Shown one piece after another: positions 3,881 through 13,602 of a stretch of DNA of 35,766 nucleotides. Numbering within the stretch: the stretch's first letter is position 1; every line of letters starts with the position of its first letter. The DNA lies in contig JAFEDX010000008.1 in assembly GCA_018241365.1 (NCBI GenBank), positions 1 to 35,766 on the forward strand, given 5' to 3'. The notes under the pieces were generated by a model that was not told the origin of the DNA, searched no databases, and saw only the letters and a list, made by a program, of their open reading frames with translations. This DNA comes from Pseudomonadota bacterium. Lineage in GTDB: Bacteria > Pseudomonadota > Gammaproteobacteria > Xanthomonadales > Rhodanobacteraceae. A program made the position numbers and the translations under genes.

Positions 3881-4003
3881 GTCGCCTGCACGCAGGCTCC
3901 TACAACCCTTTGACCGCGGTCGTGACTCATGTCGCCTGCACGCAGGCTCCTACAACCCTTTGACCGCGGTCGTGACTCATGTCGCCTGCACGCAGGCTCC
4001 TAC
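3881..4003. repeat. Perfect 50-bp tandem duplication of a REP unit
   Basis: Bases 3881-3930 and 3931-3980 are identical 50-mers, each holding one gt-loop REP unit plus a 27-base tail (aaccctttgaccgcggtcgt and on). A third unit begins at 3981 and diverges after 4003. It starts 7 bases past the stop codon of the sulfotransferase gene. Confidence 0.95.
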
Positions 4004-4327
4004 GGCCATTTCATTGTGGCCGCAATGACATCCCATTCATCGCAGGAGCGACCGTGGTCGCGACGCGATGCTCTCCAACATGCCGCATGGACCGTCGCCT
4101 GCACGCAGGCTCCTACGACCGTTTCATCGTGGTCGCACGACCTCATCGTAGGAGCGACCCGACGCCCGGCGCCGGCCGTTGCTGGGGGCTACGACAATCA
4201 TTGCTTCACCGTAGGAGCGACCGTGGTCGCGACCCATGTCGCCCCCACAAAGTCGCTGCACGCAGGCTCCTACGACCACTTCATCGTGGTCGCAAGACCT
4301 CATCGTAGGAGCGACCGTGGTCGCGAC
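3981..4327. repeat. REP cluster on the downstream side of the first RAYT
   Basis: Gt-loop REP units at 3981-4003, 4042-4064, 4094-4116, 4148-4160 (partial), 4211-4233, 4252-4273 and 4305-4327, in both orientations. The block 3981-4064 is matched at 79 of 84 positions by 4877-4960 on the other side of the RAYT. The stretch 3874-4338 holds no credible gene. Confidence 0.88.
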
Positions 4328-4338
4328 TGGCATATTCA

Positions 4339-4800
4339 TCACAGCCATTCGGCGTTCCAATACGGATATTGCATCGCATCGGCGACCAGGCCGGCACGTT
4401 CCGGATTGGCGACGATATAGCGCGCAGCGGCCCATACATCTTCGTCCCGGCGCATTGCGTGGTCGTGGAAACCACGCGCCCAGATGGCGGCCTGCCTGCC
4501 GAGCGCGGCGTGACAAGCAACGGTAGCGCGACCCTTCAGCCGCTGCACACAGCGTGAAAGATCCTGCGAGCCGTGCAGACGCAACAGGCCATGAAAGTGA
4601 TCCGGCATCAGTACCCAGCACATCCATTCCGCATCTGCGGCGGCAATCGACGGAGCGAATGTCCGGCAGGCCGCCATGGCTGTCGCAGGGTCATGAAACC
4701 ATGGTGTGCGGTTCACCGTCGCGAAGGTGACGTGATAGATGCGCCCGCGTTCGGAACCGCGTCCCTTGCGCAACGCCTTGTGTCCTTGCGAGTGCGTCAT
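4339..4800 (-). CDS. REP-associated tyrosine transposase (RAYT), first copy
   Basis: A 153-residue Y1_Tnp/IS200-like transposase of the RAYT group. These enzymes nick single-stranded REP DNA at its GTAG end and are held responsible for spreading REPs. The metal-binding HUH motif is in VLMPDHFHGLL (His68 and His70), and the likely nucleophile is Tyr128 in ARYIVANPERAGLV. Length is normal for the family and the frame is intact. The ATG at 4800 is chosen because the family fold (GRIYHVTFATV) begins soon after; upstream codons run into REP sequence. REP units of the gt-loop family lie on both sides, the expected arrangement for a RAYT and its cognate repeats. It shares the general motif pattern with the second RAYT at 9523-10014 but is clearly diverged. 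Confidence 0.93.
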   Translation of the reverse strand: MTHSQGHKALRKGRGSERGRIYHVTFATVNRTPWFHDPATAMAACRTFAPSIAAADAEWMCWVLMPDHFHGLLRLHGSQDLSRCVQRLKGRATVACHAALGRQAAIWARGFHDHAMRRDEDVWAAARYIVANPERAGLVADAMQYPYWNAEWL

Positions 4801-4876
4801 GCCGGCATGTTCGCGCGACAAGTGCGATGAGTCCGTCAGCGTACGTCCCGGCAGGGTGTCGGTGAGTGCCGCAACG

Positions 4877-4960
4877 GTCGCCTGCACGCAAGCTCCTACG
4901 ACCGTTTCATTGTGGCCGCAATGACACCCCATTCATCGTAGGAGCGACCGTGGTCGCGAC
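4877..4960. repeat. REP pair on the upstream side of the first RAYT
   Basis: Units at 4877-4899 and 4938-4960 in opposite orientation. The whole 84 bases match 3981-4064 with five substitutions, so the RAYT lies between direct copies of one REP pair. The last base abuts the terminator of the second secreted-protein gene. Confidence 0.9.
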
Positions 4961-9365: not shown

Positions 9366-9526
9366 GTCGGGCCTTCCGGCCCTCCTGCAAGAGCGGCTGT
9401 TGTAGGAGCGGCGGCAGCCGCGACCGCGCGCAACACCCGTGCCGTGTAGGAGCGGCGGAAGCCGCGACCGTTCGCGTTGCGTGCAGACAACATCGCCAAC
9501 ACGGTCGGGCCTTCCGGCCCTCCTAC
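9366..9526. repeat. REP cluster (ggaa-loop family) between gspE and the second RAYT
   Basis: Units at 9366-9388 (GGGCC/GGCCC stem), 9402-9424 (GCGGC/GCCGC stem), and the pair at 9446-9526. All keep GTAGGAG at one end and CGAC at the other, and most have a ggaa loop. The pair 9446-9526 recurs at 10084-10164. Confidence 0.88.
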
Positions 9527-10164
9527 GGCAACCATTCACTATCCCAGAACGGCCAGGCCCATGGCGATTCGACCAGCCCTGCACGCACCGGATTCGCGAC
9601 GATGTAACGGGCCGCAGTTTCGATCTGTTCGCCGCAACGCAACGCGTGGTCGTGAAAGGCGGGAGCCCAGAATGGTCGAGCATCGGGCGCCACGCTGCCA
9701 GCCGCCCGGGCGCTCACCGCCTTCACGCGCGCCATCAATCGCGACAGCGATTCGCCTTGCCCCAACGACACCAACAGATGCATGTGATCGGGCATCAGCA
9801 CCCAAGCGTGGATCACATTGTCGCGCCACAAACGCTTGCTGCCGATTTCCCTGGCCAACGCACAGGCAATACGCCAATGTGACAACCAAGGCACGCGATC
9901 CGCCGTCACCGTCGTGAGCATGTAGGTTTGTCCCGGCAGGGAACAACGTCCGCGGCGCAAGGCAGCATGGCCGGGTTTGCGCGATGTGGGTTGGCGATTC
10001 ACCGGCGCAAGCATGCGCAGCGACGTGACCCACCGGGATCATCCGCGCGCTACATGCATGGTCAGCGACGTGCCCGCATTCGTGTAGGAGCGGCGGAAGC
10101 CGCGACCGTTCGCGTTGCACGCAGACAACATCGCCAACACGGTCGGGCTTTCCGGCCCTCCTAC
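9446..10164. mobile_element. RAYT bracketed by direct copies of an 81-bp REP pair
   Basis: The 81-base blocks 9446-9526 and 10084-10164 have the same orientation and differ at only three positions. They bracket the RAYT gene at 9523-10014. The whole unit interrupts the type II secretion operon between gspE and gspF. RAYTs are not known to carry transposon ends of their own, so calling this a composite unit is inference from the flanking repeats. Confidence 0.65.
9523..10014 (-). CDS. REP-associated tyrosine transposase (RAYT), second copy
   Basis: A 163-residue Y1_Tnp-family transposase, antisense to the secretion operon. The HUH motif is in VLMPDHMHLLV (His77 and His79); the likely nucleophile is Tyr137 in ARYIVANPVRAGLV. 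The gene looks intact from the ATG at 10014. Its TAG stop at 9523-9525 is formed by the CTCCTAC end of the neighbouring REP. It is flanked by ggaa-loop REPs, whereas the RAYT at 4339-4800 is flanked by gt-loop REPs, so the two enzymes probably serve different repeat families. Being antisense between gspE and gspF, it may weaken transcription of the downstream secretion genes unless these have their own promoter. Confidence 0.93.
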   Translation of the reverse strand: MLAPVNRQPTSRKPGHAALRRGRCSLPGQTYMLTTVTADRVPWLSHWRIACALAREIGSKRLWRDNVIHAWVLMPDHMHLLVSLGQGESLSRLMARVKAVSARAAGSVAPDARPFWAPAFHDHALRCGEQIETAARYIVANPVRAGLVESPWAWPFWDSEWLP

Positions 10165-10240
10165 AAAGAATCGCCACGCAAACCGGTCGGCCTTCCGGCC
10201 CTCCTACAGTCAAGATCGGTTGGATCTCCCGGCCCTCCTG
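10084..10240. repeat. REP cluster (ggaa-loop family) upstream of gspF
   Basis: A REP pair at 10084-10164, a single unit at 10186-10207, and a decayed unit at about 10217-10240. The block ends about 75 bases before the gspF start. The remainder of 10015-10313 contains no gene that I can support; a promoter for gspF would have to lie here if transcription does not read through from gspE. Confidence 0.85.
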
Positions 10241-10313
10241 CGGAACCTTCCGTGATCGCGCAGGTATCATGTCCACCTGCCGGATTCACGCAGCCAGCCA
10301 CTGCGACGATGCA

Positions 10314-11507
10314 ATGCCCCATTTCGACTACGAAGCCCTGAACGCCGACGGCATGGTGCTGACCGGCAACCTCGTCGCGGATGGCGAGCGCGACGCGCTG
10401 CGCCAGCTGGAACGACGCGGGCTGACCACGCTGTCGATCAAGTCGCAGGCGGCGCGCAAGGCGCGGCGCGCGGGACGGCTGCGCACGCTGGACATCGTGC
10501 TGCCGATGCACGAACTGGCGACGATGTTGAATTCGGGCGTGGGCCTGGCCGAAGCCGTCACCGTGCAATCGCAATCCGCGCACCATCCGGTGGTGGTCGG
10601 CGCGTTCGCGCAGATGGCGACCTCGCTGCAACGCGGGCAGGCGTTCTCCGATGCGCTGGCGGCCACCAGGCTGCCGCTGCCGTCCTACGTGCTCCAATTG
10701 GTGAAGGCCGGCGAGATGACCGGCGAACTCGGCAAGTCGCTGGAAGGCGCGGCCGAGCAGATGGAATACGAGGAGCGCGTGCGCACCGAAATGCGCAATG
10801 CGCTGATCTACCCGACCATCCTGATCTGCGCCGGCGTCGCGGCGGTGCTGATCGTGTTCACCTTCGTGGTACCGAAATTTTCGATGCTGCTGAAGAAGTC
10901 CGACCAATTGCCGTGGCTGGCGTGGGCGGTGCTGGAAGGCGGCACCTGGGTGAACGCCAACCGCGTGTGGCTGTTCCCGCTGGCCATCATCGCGGTCATC
11001 GGCGCGGCGGCGGCGCTGCGCAAGGCCAGCGTGCGCGACCGGCTGTACCAGCAGATCAGCGGTTGGCCGCTGATCGGCGCGTGGCTCACGGAATCGGAAA
11101 TCGCGCGCTGGGCGAAGATGATGGGCACCCTGCTCGGCAACAAGGTCGCGCTGCTGGAGGCGCTGGAGTTGTCGAGCGAAGGCCTGCGCCTGCAGCAGCG
11201 GCGCATCCGCATGCGCGAAGTCGCGCGTGCGGTACGTTCAGGTTCGACCCTGGCGCAGTCGCTGGAAAACCACGACGCACTCACCGGCACGGGCTACAAT
11301 CTGGTCGGCGTGGGCGAGCGCACGGGCACCCTGCCCGGCATGCTGCAATCGCTGGCCAAGCTGTACGAGGAAGCCGGGCGGCAGCGCATGAAGCGCGTGC
11401 TGGCCTTGATCGAACCGCTGGCGATCCTGGTGATCGGCGCCGTGATCGGGACGATCATCCTCGGCGTGGTGCTGGCGATCACCAGCGCCAACACCCTTGC
11501 GACATGA
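10314..11507 (+). CDS. gspF: Type II secretion inner-membrane platform protein GspF
   Basis: A 397-residue polytopic membrane protein. GspF forms the inner-membrane platform with GspL and GspM above the GspE ATPase. Two T2SSF domains are visible, each with the helical pattern and short VKAGEMTGEL / VGERTGTLPGML motif. Membrane segments lie near 163-187, 220-238 and 364-390. The ATG at 10314 (MPHFDYEAL) is chosen because this is the usual family N-terminus; codons upstream add a non-conserved stretch. The stop overlaps the first possible gspG start as ATGA. Upstream lies the RAYT/REP insertion rather than gspE. Confidence 0.95.
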   Translation: MPHFDYEALNADGMVLTGNLVADGERDALRQLERRGLTTLSIKSQAARKARRAGRLRTLDIVLPMHELATMLNSGVGLAEAVTVQSQSAHHPVVVGAFAQMATSLQRGQAFSDALAATRLPLPSYVLQLVKAGEMTGELGKSLEGAAEQMEYEERVRTEMRNALIYPTILICAGVAAVLIVFTFVVPKFSMLLKKSDQLPWLAWAVLEGGTWVNANRVWLFPLAIIAVIGAAAALRKASVRDRLYQQISGWPLIGAWLTESEIARWAKMMGTLLGNKVALLEALELSSEGLRLQQRRIRMREVARAVRSGSTLAQSLENHDALTGTGYNLVGVGERTGTLPGMLQSLAKLYEEAGRQRMKRVLALIEPLAILVIGAVIGTIILGVVLAITSANTLAT

Positions 11508-11995
11508 AACGAGGTTCTGGCGTGAAATACGCAAAGCGACAACAATCCGGATTTACCCTGCTCGAGATGATCGTGGTGCTGGTCATCATCGGACTGATCG
11601 CGGGCCTGGTCGGGCCGCGGCTGTTTTCGCAAGCCGACAACGCCAAGGTGCAAACCGCGAACGTGCAGATCAAGATGCTGCGCAGCGCGCTGGAAACCAT
11701 GCAGGTGGACATCGGCCGTTTCCCGAACGCACAGGAAGGCCTGTCCCTGCTGGTGGACAAGCCGGCCGACCAGGCGCTCGCGGCACGCTGGCACGGCCCG
11801 TACCTCAGCGACGGCGTGCCGCTGGATCCGTGGGGCCATCCGTACCAGTACTCGCCGGAGCCCAGCGGCCTGCAGCCCTTCACCTTGTATTCCTTCGGCG
11901 CCGACGGCAAGCCGGGAGGCACAGGCATTGATGCCGACATTGGCTACCTGCCGCAACAGCAGCAGCAACAGCAGCAACCGCAGGCGCAGCAGTAA
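11504..11995 (+). CDS. gspG: Major pseudopilin GspG
   Basis: A 163-residue major pseudopilin that builds the T2SS pseudopilus. The prepilin peptidase site is SG|FTLLEMIVVLVIIGLIAGLVG, with Phe1 and Glu5 present. The body has the expected features RFPNAQEGL, DPWGHPYQY and SFGADGKPGG (the calcium-binding C-terminal loop). The ATG at 11504 overlaps the gspF stop; a GTG at 11522 has a better ribosome site (GAGG, 7-base spacing) and would give a 10-residue leader, so that may be the true start. After the usual end of the family, the protein gains a glutamine-rich tail of about 15 residues (eight Gln in a row), encoded by a CAG/CAA repeat that is also the leader region of gspH in another frame. Confidence 0.93.
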   Translation: MKRGSGVKYAKRQQSGFTLLEMIVVLVIIGLIAGLVGPRLFSQADNAKVQTANVQIKMLRSALETMQVDIGRFPNAQEGLSLLVDKPADQALAARWHGPYLSDGVPLDPWGHPYQYSPEPSGLQPFTLYSFGADGKPGGTGIDADIGYLPQQQQQQQQPQAQQ

Positions 11996-12410
11996 TCCGC
12001 GCACGCACGCCGGCTTCACCCTGCTGGAAATGATGGTGGTGCTGGCGATCGTGGCGCTGGTGGTCGGCGTGGCCGCGGTGAATGCCTTTGCCATGATGCA
12101 CAGTTGGCGCGCGCGCACCCAGCTCGATGCGATCGGCGCGCAGTTTGCGCACCTGCCGGTGCTGGCGCGCCAGCGCGGACGCGCGATCGTGCTGCCGCCC
12201 AAGGCCGATCCCGATCCGGAGAACGCGAAGCTGCCGCCGGCGATCAGCTTGCCCGCGAACTGGCTGATCCGTTTCGACCATCCGCTGAAGGTGCAGGCCA
12301 CCGGCTTGTGCGAAGGCGCGACCATCACGCTGGAGCACTTCGACCGCACCTACCACCGCCGGATCCTGCCGCCGTTCTGCCAATGGCAGGCGATCGACGA
12401 AGCACCATGA
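11931..12410 (+). CDS. gspH: Minor pseudopilin GspH
   Basis: A 159-residue minor pseudopilin of the tip complex. The cleavage site is HAG|FTLLEMMVVLAIVALVVG with Glu5. The only in-frame starts lie inside gspG: ATG at 11931 (ribosome site GGGAGG at 11914-11919, 11-base spacing) or TTG at 11928. The gene therefore overlaps gspG by about 65 bases. The leader of about 28 residues is Ser/Asn/Arg-rich because it is read from the CAG/CAA repeat in a shifted frame. The body is short but ends normally (FCQWQAIDEAP). The stop overlaps the gspI start as ATGA. Confidence 0.88.
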   Translation: MPTLATCRNSSSNSSNRRRSSNPRTHAGFTLLEMMVVLAIVALVVGVAAVNAFAMMHSWRARTQLDAIGAQFAHLPVLARQRGRAIVLPPKADPDPENAKLPPAISLPANWLIRFDHPLKVQATGLCEGATITLEHFDRTYHRRILPPFCQWQAIDEAP

Positions 12411-12994
12411 CGGCGCACATCGCACCGGATCGGTCGGGCCTTCCGGCCCTCCTACACGGGCGTTGCAGGAGCGGCGGCATCCGCGACGGTTCACGGCACG
12501 CACCAACCGCTACGCAAAACCTGTCGGGCCTTCCGGCCCTCCTGCACGGGCGTTGCAGGAGCGGCGACAGCCGCGACCGGACCAATCATCAACACGGCTT
12601 CATGTTGCTGGAAGCCATCGTGGCGCTGGTGATCTTCAGCCTGGTCGCTGTGTCGCTGTACGCGTGGCAAAGCACCAACGTGCAGGCCATCCAGCGCGCC
12701 GAAGCCCACGCCCGCAGCAACGCGGCCACGCGTTCGGCGCTGGCCGTGCTCGCCGACGTCAATCCCATGCTCACGCCGAAAGGCGAACGCCCGATGGGCG
12801 CGGATACGGTGCATTGGGACGCCACCGCAGTGCGCCCCGTGCGCAACGGCGTCACCGCGGTCGGGCTGCCGAGCCTGTTCGATCTCGGATTGTACGAGAT
12901 GCACGTGCAGGTGACGGACGCCAACGGCGTGATCGCCGCGTTCGTGGTGCGCCAGGCCGGTTACAAGCAGGTCCGCCAGATGGACAAGCCATGA
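12407..12994 (+). CDS. gspI: Minor pseudopilin GspI with REP-encoded leader
   Basis: A 195-residue reading, of which the last 131 residues are an ordinary GspI: cleavage site HQHG|FMLLEAIVALVIFSLVAV with Phe1 and Glu5. The frame opens at ATG 12407, overlapping the gspH stop as ATGA, the operon's usual junction. The 64 residues before the cleavage point are mostly translated REP sequence: the phrase SGLPALLHGRCRSG occurs twice, 30 residues apart. No ATG, GTG or TTG lies in frame between the REPs and the cleavage site, and the next ATG at 12602 would remove the leader and Phe1. Either the long leader is used or gspI is poorly expressed. The gene ends in ATGA with gspJ. The pseudopilin body appears intact. 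Confidence 0.85.
   Translation: MTAHIAPDRSGLPALLHGRCRSGGIRDGSRHAPTATQNLSGLPALLHGRCRSGDSRDRTNHQHGFMLLEAIVALVIFSLVAVSLYAWQSTNVQAIQRAEAHARSNAATRSALAVLADVNPMLTPKGERPMGADTVHWDATAVRPVRNGVTAVGLPSLFDLGLYEMHVQVTDANGVIAAFVVRQAGYKQVRQMDKP
12433..12577. repeat. Two REP pairs inside the gspI 5' end
   Basis: Ggaa-type units at 12433-12455, 12463-12487, 12523-12545 and 12553-12577. The second pair repeats the first at a 90-base period (a multiple of three). The members facing forward have GCAGGAG instead of GTAGGAG. All lie within the open gspI frame. Confidence 0.9.
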
Positions 12995-13602
12995 GGCGCG
13001 CGCACGGTTTCACCCTGATGGAAGTGCTGGTCACGCTGATCATCACCGCGCTGGCGGTCGCGTTGATGTTCCAGGCGCTGGGCAGCTTCAACCACGCGCG
13101 CGTGCGCACCGCGGCGCTGGAAGGCGTGCGCGACAACAAGACCGTGATGGCCGGCTGGATCGGCGACAGCATCCGCGGCATCGTCGCAATCGATCCACGC
13201 TCGCTGGCGGTCAGCAAGAAGGGCGATCCGGAGCTCGGCTTGACCGGCGACGCGAACGGATTCTCGGCCATGACGGTGTCGCCGCTCGAAGGCGGCGCCG
13301 GCATCCCGACGGTGATCCGCTGGCAGGTCGAGCGCGGAGCCGCGGACGATCAACTCGCCTACCGCGAAGCGGGACGGCAGGCGCTGTACCTGCCGATGGG
13401 CCAGTCGCTGCAGTTCGCCTACATGGACGACAAGGGCAAGCTGCACGCGCAGTGGCCGCCGGAACAAGGCCTGCAGCAGGCGCTGCCCGATGCGATCCAG
13501 CTCACCTGGAACGACGATGGCCAGGCCAAGGTGCTGGTCACCGCCATCGCCGCACCCAAGCCGACGCTGCTGGCGCCCTACGACCTCGAGGTCGCCGAGT
13601 GA
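12991..13602 (+). CDS. gspJ: Minor pseudopilin GspJ
   Basis: A 203-residue minor pseudopilin that joins GspI and GspK at the pseudopilus tip. A short leader of six residues precedes the site RRAHG|FTLMEVLVTLIITALAVAL, with Phe1 and Glu5 present. The rest fits GspJ (RWQVERG, LTWNDDGQAKVLVTAI). Start ATG overlaps the gspI stop (ATGA) and the stop overlaps the gspK GTG start (GTGA), so translation is likely coupled. No unusual features. Confidence 0.92.
   Translation: MRRAHGFTLMEVLVTLIITALAVALMFQALGSFNHARVRTAALEGVRDNKTVMAGWIGDSIRGIVAIDPRSLAVSKKGDPELGLTGDANGFSAMTVSPLEGGAGIPTVIRWQVERGAADDQLAYREAGRQALYLPMGQSLQFAYMDDKGKLHAQWPPEQGLQQALPDAIQLTWNDDGQAKVLVTAIAAPKPTLLAPYDLEVAE

Follow-up and report, generated by a model that had tools for sequence, protein, structure and literature searches.

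An array of REP elements lies in frame in the predicted GspI prepilin leader of a type II secretion operon that carries a REP-associated transposase gene

Results

A type II secretion operon with a transposase gene between gspE and gspF

The window, by which we mean the whole stretch of 35,766 nucleotides analysed here, is one contig of a 3.2-Mb source genome (G000) in 222 contigs. It carries a type II secretion (T2SS) operon in the order gspE, a gap bearing a transposase gene, gspF, gspG, gspH, gspI, a prepilin gene at the gspJ position, a K-like gene, a C-like gene and gspD. On the forward strand, gspF occupies 10314-11507 (with an alternative start at 10269) and is followed by gspG, encoding the major pseudopilin, at 11522-11995 (TIGR01710, 173.1 bits against a cut-off of 88.85). 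The gspH gene at 11931-12410 ends with the stop codon TGA at 12408-12410, which overlaps the ATG of the 195-residue gspI reading frame (12407-12994) as ATGA. The prepilin gene at the gspJ position lies at 12991-13602 and matches through its N-terminal prepilin motif only. The start of gspH also overlaps its upstream neighbour: its 28-residue leader, from ATG 11931, is encoded out of frame over the glutamine-rich end of gspG (11931-11995). The same overlap is found in a second species of the genus, represented by the one-contig genome G004, where the glutamine run differs.

The gap between gspE and gspF contains, on the reverse strand, a gene for a REP-associated tyrosine transposase (RAYT) at 9526-10014 (NF047646, 129.3 bits, cut-off 80). 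It is flanked on one side by an array of REP half-units in the order A, B, B, A (9366-9527, forward strand) and on the other by an array in the order B, A, A (10083-10208, forward strand). These are the same A and B REPs that are found in the gspI leader, and it is likely that the operon RAYT is their transposase. G004 has the same RAYT gene in the same place, at 89% identity. A second RAYT gene lies on the reverse strand at 4342-4932 (NF047646, 124.7 bits), with repeats at 3881-4327 and 4877-4960 that are of a different REP type (GTAGGAGCGACCGTGGTCGCGAC and GTCGCCTGCACGCAGGCTCCTAC). The window thus holds two RAYT/REP pairs inside 6 kb. Neither an Rfam scan of the window at gathering thresholds nor a search of it for tRNA and tmRNA genes gave a match.

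In the operon, gspI is preceded by gspH and followed by a further prepilin gene. Its product scores 21.1 bits against the GspI model TIGR01707, below the cut-off of 44.35 and over the first 37 of 101 model positions, so that the name GspI rests on position, motif and orthologs. Seven of the ten members of the ortholog alignment match TIGR01707 at E up to 0.001, and five of the ten match the XpsI model NF047828; the window protein is not among the XpsI matches. When solved structures were searched with a profile built from the GspI alignment, no pseudopilin was retrieved; the one match was a chemotaxis protein at E 0.2. The prepilin motif itself is recognised at the N-terminus by PF07963 (22.2 bits, cut-off 21.2) as G^FMLLEAIVALVIF, with Gly(-1), a hydrophobic stretch and Glu(+5).

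Two REP pairs lie in frame ahead of the predicted cleavage site

REPs are normally located between genes. In gspI, four REP half-units sit within the reading frame, arranged as two inverted pairs at 12433-12487 and 12523-12577. The pairs are 55 nt each, 95% identical and repeated with a period of 90 nt. The first pair consists of half-unit A at 12433-12456 and half-unit B at 12464-12487, the second of A at 12523-12546 and B at 12554-12577, all on the forward strand. The units have an end that resembles TGTAGGAG, and their stems, GGGCC-TTCC-GGCCC and GCGGC-GACA-GCCGC, are GC-rich and about 5 bp long, the stem of the first B unit being weaker. The first A unit is a GTAG-type REP seen from the complement, with the exact tag (TGTAG), and the tags of the other three read GCAG, so that the exact GTAG 5' tag is present in one of four leader units of the window; it is present in all five of G004. 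Copies of the A half-unit with at most two mismatches number 76 in G000 and 75 in G004, and a reversed-pattern control gave 0. This high copy number against the control identifies the leader repeats as genuine REPs and not chance resemblances.

The frame is open through both pairs and translates as MTAHIAPDR(SGLPALLHGRCRSG)GIRDGSRHAPTATQNL(SGLPALLHGRCRSG)DSRDRTNHQHG^FMLLEAIVAL, where the caret marks the predicted prepilin peptidase site between Gly(-1) and Phe(+1) (12596-12601, from PF07963). Cleavage there would leave a mature GspI that begins at 12599 and release a 64-residue class III leader encoded by 12407-12598. The leader is hydrophilic and net positive, with nine K/R and four D/E residues in the window and ten and five in G004. 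A scan for start codons found that the nearest in-frame ATG, GTG or TTG before the cleavage site is ATG 12407, 64 residues upstream. The earlier note had described the two REP pairs with their 90-base period between the ATGA junction and the cleavage site, the open frame giving a 64-residue leader with SGLPALLHGRCRSG twice, and the lack of such a start codon after the REPs. Every detail checked held. An in-frame CTG is present at 12542-12544, and the corresponding unit of G004 reads CTA.

This leader is exceptionally long. Of the 25 prepilin motifs of G000 and G004, 23 have a leader of 3-25 residues when measured from the nearest start; the other two are those of the gspI genes, with 64 and 67. 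Across 250 genomes of the order, the 30 GspI loci that scored best all have leaders of 3-20 residues. A prepilin peptidase gene is present in G000 (PF01478, 93.6 bits), and its protein is matched in 13 of 16 genomes of the genus. In G004, of which a stretch reads partly N, the Pfam model gave no match at E up to 0.001, and the G000 protein gave none at E up to 10. We set aside a loss of the peptidase in G004, since absence from such a sequence is not interpretable; processing of the GspI leader in G004 is unsupported.

The long leader is a derived state present in two species

GspI was found at E up to 1e-5 in G004 alone among 60 relatives, that is, in two of 61 genomes counting G000. A search with GspF in 16 genomes of the genus gave close matches in G000 and G004 alone, the remaining matches having 23-26% identity. 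In 233 genomes of the family the GspF search recovered seven further orthologous operons, all in other genera, and these serve as outgroups.

The earlier note had called for an alignment of gspH-gspI junctions, and the seven outgroups indicate what the leader was before the insertion. In 7/7 the GspI leader has 6-7 residues and begins at a codon overlapping the stop of gspH. The leader sequences are MKHARG, MKRARG (twice), MRHARG, MRRRQRG, MRRRQHG and, from a TTG start, (M)NTRQSG. No A/B REPs occur in any of these loci (L034-L040). Because all seven orthologs from other genera have short leaders free of A/B REPs, the long REP leader is a derived state. To judge from the shared overlap with the gspH stop, ATG 12407 is at the ancestral start position. 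Four of the outgroup loci (L034-L037) span both gspE and gspF; the search found no RAYT in them, and 8-183 bases separate the aligned gene ends.

In G004 the array is at the same place in gspI, and the linkers between its units can be aligned with those of the window. It has one more half-unit, which amounts to a 33-nt insertion, and the frame remains open with no stops. The G004 leader has 75 residues when counted from the ATG that overlaps gspH, and 73 or 67 from further in-frame starts. Position, spacing and linkers suggest that the two species share the array by descent. Only these two species carry it, probably as the result of one event.

REPs are also piled up around the operon in G004. 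There, a region of 27.5 kb around the operon contains 50 of the 74 A units listed (75 reported), and the 15.5 kb of the locus itself (L011) yielded 68 called REP units. Upstream of the gspE-I genes of G004, L011 3829-5306 is a dense array of 36 units over about 1.5 kb, in which directly adjacent A units are spaced by 37 nt.

Selection acts on the mature protein and hardly on the leader sequence

Comparison of the window with G004 gives dN 0.057, dS 0.365 and dN/dS 0.155 for mature gspI, indicating purifying selection. The corresponding dN/dS values of its neighbours are 0.077 (gspG), 0.109 (gspH) and 0.171 (gspJ). Provided that the two species inherited the array from a common ancestor, the divergence of mature gspI, and hence the purifying selection, came with the array present.

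The leader, by contrast, is barely constrained (dN 0.242 versus 0.057 for the mature part; dN/dS 0.67). Third codon positions do not stand out among its differences, which number 8, 18 and 17 at positions 1, 2 and 3, of 63 each. Codon-level conservation of the REP-encoded peptide was sought in the window and G004 leaders and was not found. The earlier note had spoken of a 'domesticated' REP. Since the leader evolves fast and gives no sign of a peptide function, that part of the reading is unsupported.

The A units of the gspI arrays are spaced by 90, 90 and 33 nt, all three divisible by 3. Elsewhere, this is true of 12 of 41 A-unit spacings and of 1 of the 24 spacings of directly adjacent A units, whose values are 37 (15 times), 31 (6 times), 43, 45 and 124 nt. 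Because many of these copies come from one amplified array, the comparison is suggestive and does not amount to a test. The window array is open in all three forward frames, and the G004 array in two of three. Among 39 other all-forward arrays of at least two REPs, drawn from the window, L011 and 40 fetched stretches, two forward frames are open in 27, one in 8, three in 2 and none in 2; over arrays of at least 120 nt elsewhere, 14 of 30 forward frames are open. These REPs are poor in stops and open in most forward frames, so an open frame alone is weak evidence, and we rejected it as proof of translation.

In-frame repeats at other places

A comparable situation is found in the same operon of another genus. 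In genome G212, the gspH leader has a 108-nt in-frame insertion when aligned with its relative G211. The inserted segment is a palindromic repeat of a multi-copy family (L039 5702-5814, reverse strand), absent from this place in G211, and the TAG stop codon of gspG comes from it. The family is matched at least 26 times in G212, counting the inserted copy, and at least 40 times in G211, from 40 candidates scored per genome, some places being matched on both strands. The repeat in G212 may be untranslated, because an in-frame GTG follows the insertion. This gspH case hints that the prepilin leader is a recurring soft target. That prepilin leaders recurrently shelter mobile palindromic repeats, with gspI in this genus and gspH in G212 as independent events, is a tentative idea that we regard as possible but somewhat doubtful. 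If true, the two would be cases of one rule, by which insertions are nearly free while the frame holds, since the segment is removed.

REPs also occur in frame outside leaders. In G004, the linker that joins the MeaB and mutase domains of a methylmalonyl-CoA-mutase-like protein contains an in-frame REP pair (L108 1160-1223, reverse strand). In two other species of the genus, G013 (L152) and G014 (L153), this linker contains different, longer in-frame stretches without A/B REPs, which look repeat-derived. More generally, 42 REP clusters in the 40 fetched stretches, which are a selection of the A-unit places in G000 and G004, include 12 frames that stay open for about 100 codons or more to either side. 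Ten of these 12 frames were scanned with Pfam: the L108 frame has domains on both sides, one other (L103) has a domain downstream only, and eight gave no match.

Discussion

From the observed array and its frame, its derived state, its presence in a second species, the purifying selection on mature gspI and the RAYT gene in the operon, we propose an explanation that we consider likely as a whole: the operon was invaded by a RAYT/REP system, and one array is read in frame as a cleavable GspI leader of which frame and length are under selection. An ancestor of the two species would have acquired the RAYT gene and its REPs in the operon, between gspE and gspF. The REPs would then have multiplied locally, local spread being the presumed source of the array. 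One A-B-A-B array may have landed in the short gspI leader, behind the start codon at the overlap with gspH, and in frame by chance. GspI would still be initiated at ATG 12407, and the ribosome would read the REPs as a net positive, cytoplasmic leader of 64-75 residues. Prepilin peptidase is expected to cut after Gly(-1) and so to leave the mature pseudopilin unchanged. Selection would act on the frame and length of the REP-encoded segment and hardly on its sequence. Very probably, then, the REPs are read by the ribosome, and as filler.

The earlier note had also offered removal of the leader as the explanation for tolerance of the insertion, and we retain this as the likely reason. The second species keeps the frame through a 33-nt indel, purifying selection acts on mature GspI, the seven orthologs with short leaders free of these REPs start at the same overlap with gspH, and no ATG, GTG or TTG follows the REPs ahead of the cleavage site, all of which agrees with the presumed translation and cleavage.

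The main rival explanation is that translation has shifted to the ATG at 12602-12604, which encodes Met at mature position +2. GspI would then start as MLLEAIV and remain unprocessed, and the REPs would be untranslated or irrelevant. It is true that Met at +2 is confined to the REP-leader proteins: both have it, compared with none of the 53 other prepilin and GspI sequences scanned (all T or S) and none of the eight other members of the ortholog alignment (Thr or Ser). Moreover, N-terminal REPs are often described as non-coding, with translation that may start downstream, in the portion of PMC3733652 available to us. Such a protein would, however, be without Gly(-1), Phe(+1) and all the charges of the leader, and according to the accessible text of PMC10191384 it is by the positive-inside rule that a prepilin leader is kept inside. 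Gly(-1), Phe(+1) and the frame of the array are kept in both species despite the 33-nt indel. The Shine-Dalgarno sequence of ATG 12602 is also weak, at -1.7 kcal/mol against a random median of -2.4, compared with an ordinary -2.9 kcal/mol at ATG 12407, which translational coupling to gspH could explain. Because of the loss of the processing features and the weak ribosome-binding score, we rate a start at 12602 as improbable.

A slightly less probable rival is that the array serves after transcription, its hairpins lowering the expression of gspI relative to gspG and gspH, with in-frame translation as a by-product. By raw folding energy the arrays appear to fold strongly (-86.4 kcal/mol over 204 nt in the window and -115.9 over 236 nt in G004), and down-regulation would fit GspI, which is a minor pseudopilin by model name. 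Yet there is no sign of selection for hairpins. Read by eye, the alignment of the two species shows units that have drifted apart and a weakened stem in the window, and REPs are dense across the locus in any case. A role of hairpins would be compatible with an in-frame leader, the two not being exclusive. That gspI is decaying or misassembled, the REP insertion having broken the gene, is largely refuted and very improbable: though repeat-rich DNA is error-prone and G000 is in 222 contigs, the separate one-contig genome G004 has the same structure and mature gspI is under purifying selection.

On our preferred explanation, in which the REPs are read as a removable leader, the case is useful in several ways. 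It presents an N-terminal REP insertion with no downstream start ahead of an apparently required cleavage site, and selection is visible on the mature protein. Since the usual escape of a downstream start is missing ahead of that site and selection can be seen, the translation of bacterial REPs becomes directly testable here. The case also offers a reason why a REP insertion can be harmless, in that the segment is cut off. In addition, it presents a RAYT/REP system that is apparently spreading within a secretion operon.

Comparison with known systems

In-frame REPs are already known. The available text of PMC3733652 (BMC Genomics 2013) describes intragenic GTAG-type REPs associated with REPtrons/RAYTs, N-terminal cases included, in which dimers or groups encode 20-30 residues and clusters encode 43-82. 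It states that R. conorii proteins with N-terminal RPE-1 elements are expressed in vivo. Many N-terminal REPs are judged there to be possibly extragenic, most of those in three named species being non-coding on the grounds of shorter homologs and downstream starts. The REPs of gspI resemble these in their palindrome, dimers and clusters, in the RAYT nearby and, for part of the units, in the GTAG tag. They differ, as far as that text goes, in that no ATG, GTG or TTG follows them ahead of the predicted cleavage site, and in that the segment is, by prediction, a cleaved leader.

Two further systems can be compared. Rickettsia palindromic elements (RPEs, PMC10969869) are likewise palindromic mobile repeats in frame in protein genes. 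Compared by description, they are a different element in many unrelated genes, and the text available of that paper describes no cases in which a leader is removed. Among prepilins, the T4bP pilins and PilE1/PilE2 of Streptococcus sanguinis illustrate that class III leaders vary in length and can be long, in the available parts of PMC10191384 and PMC6497953; unlike for gspI, those parts state neither a length of 64-75 residues nor an origin from mobile repeats. Our literature search turned up no prepilin leader reported to contain REPs, though the supplementary table of intragenic REPs in PMC3733652 may include one. Thus, as far as this search shows, what is new is the combination of REPs in a prepilin leader, no downstream start ahead of the cleavage site, occurrence in two species and a transposase gene nearby.
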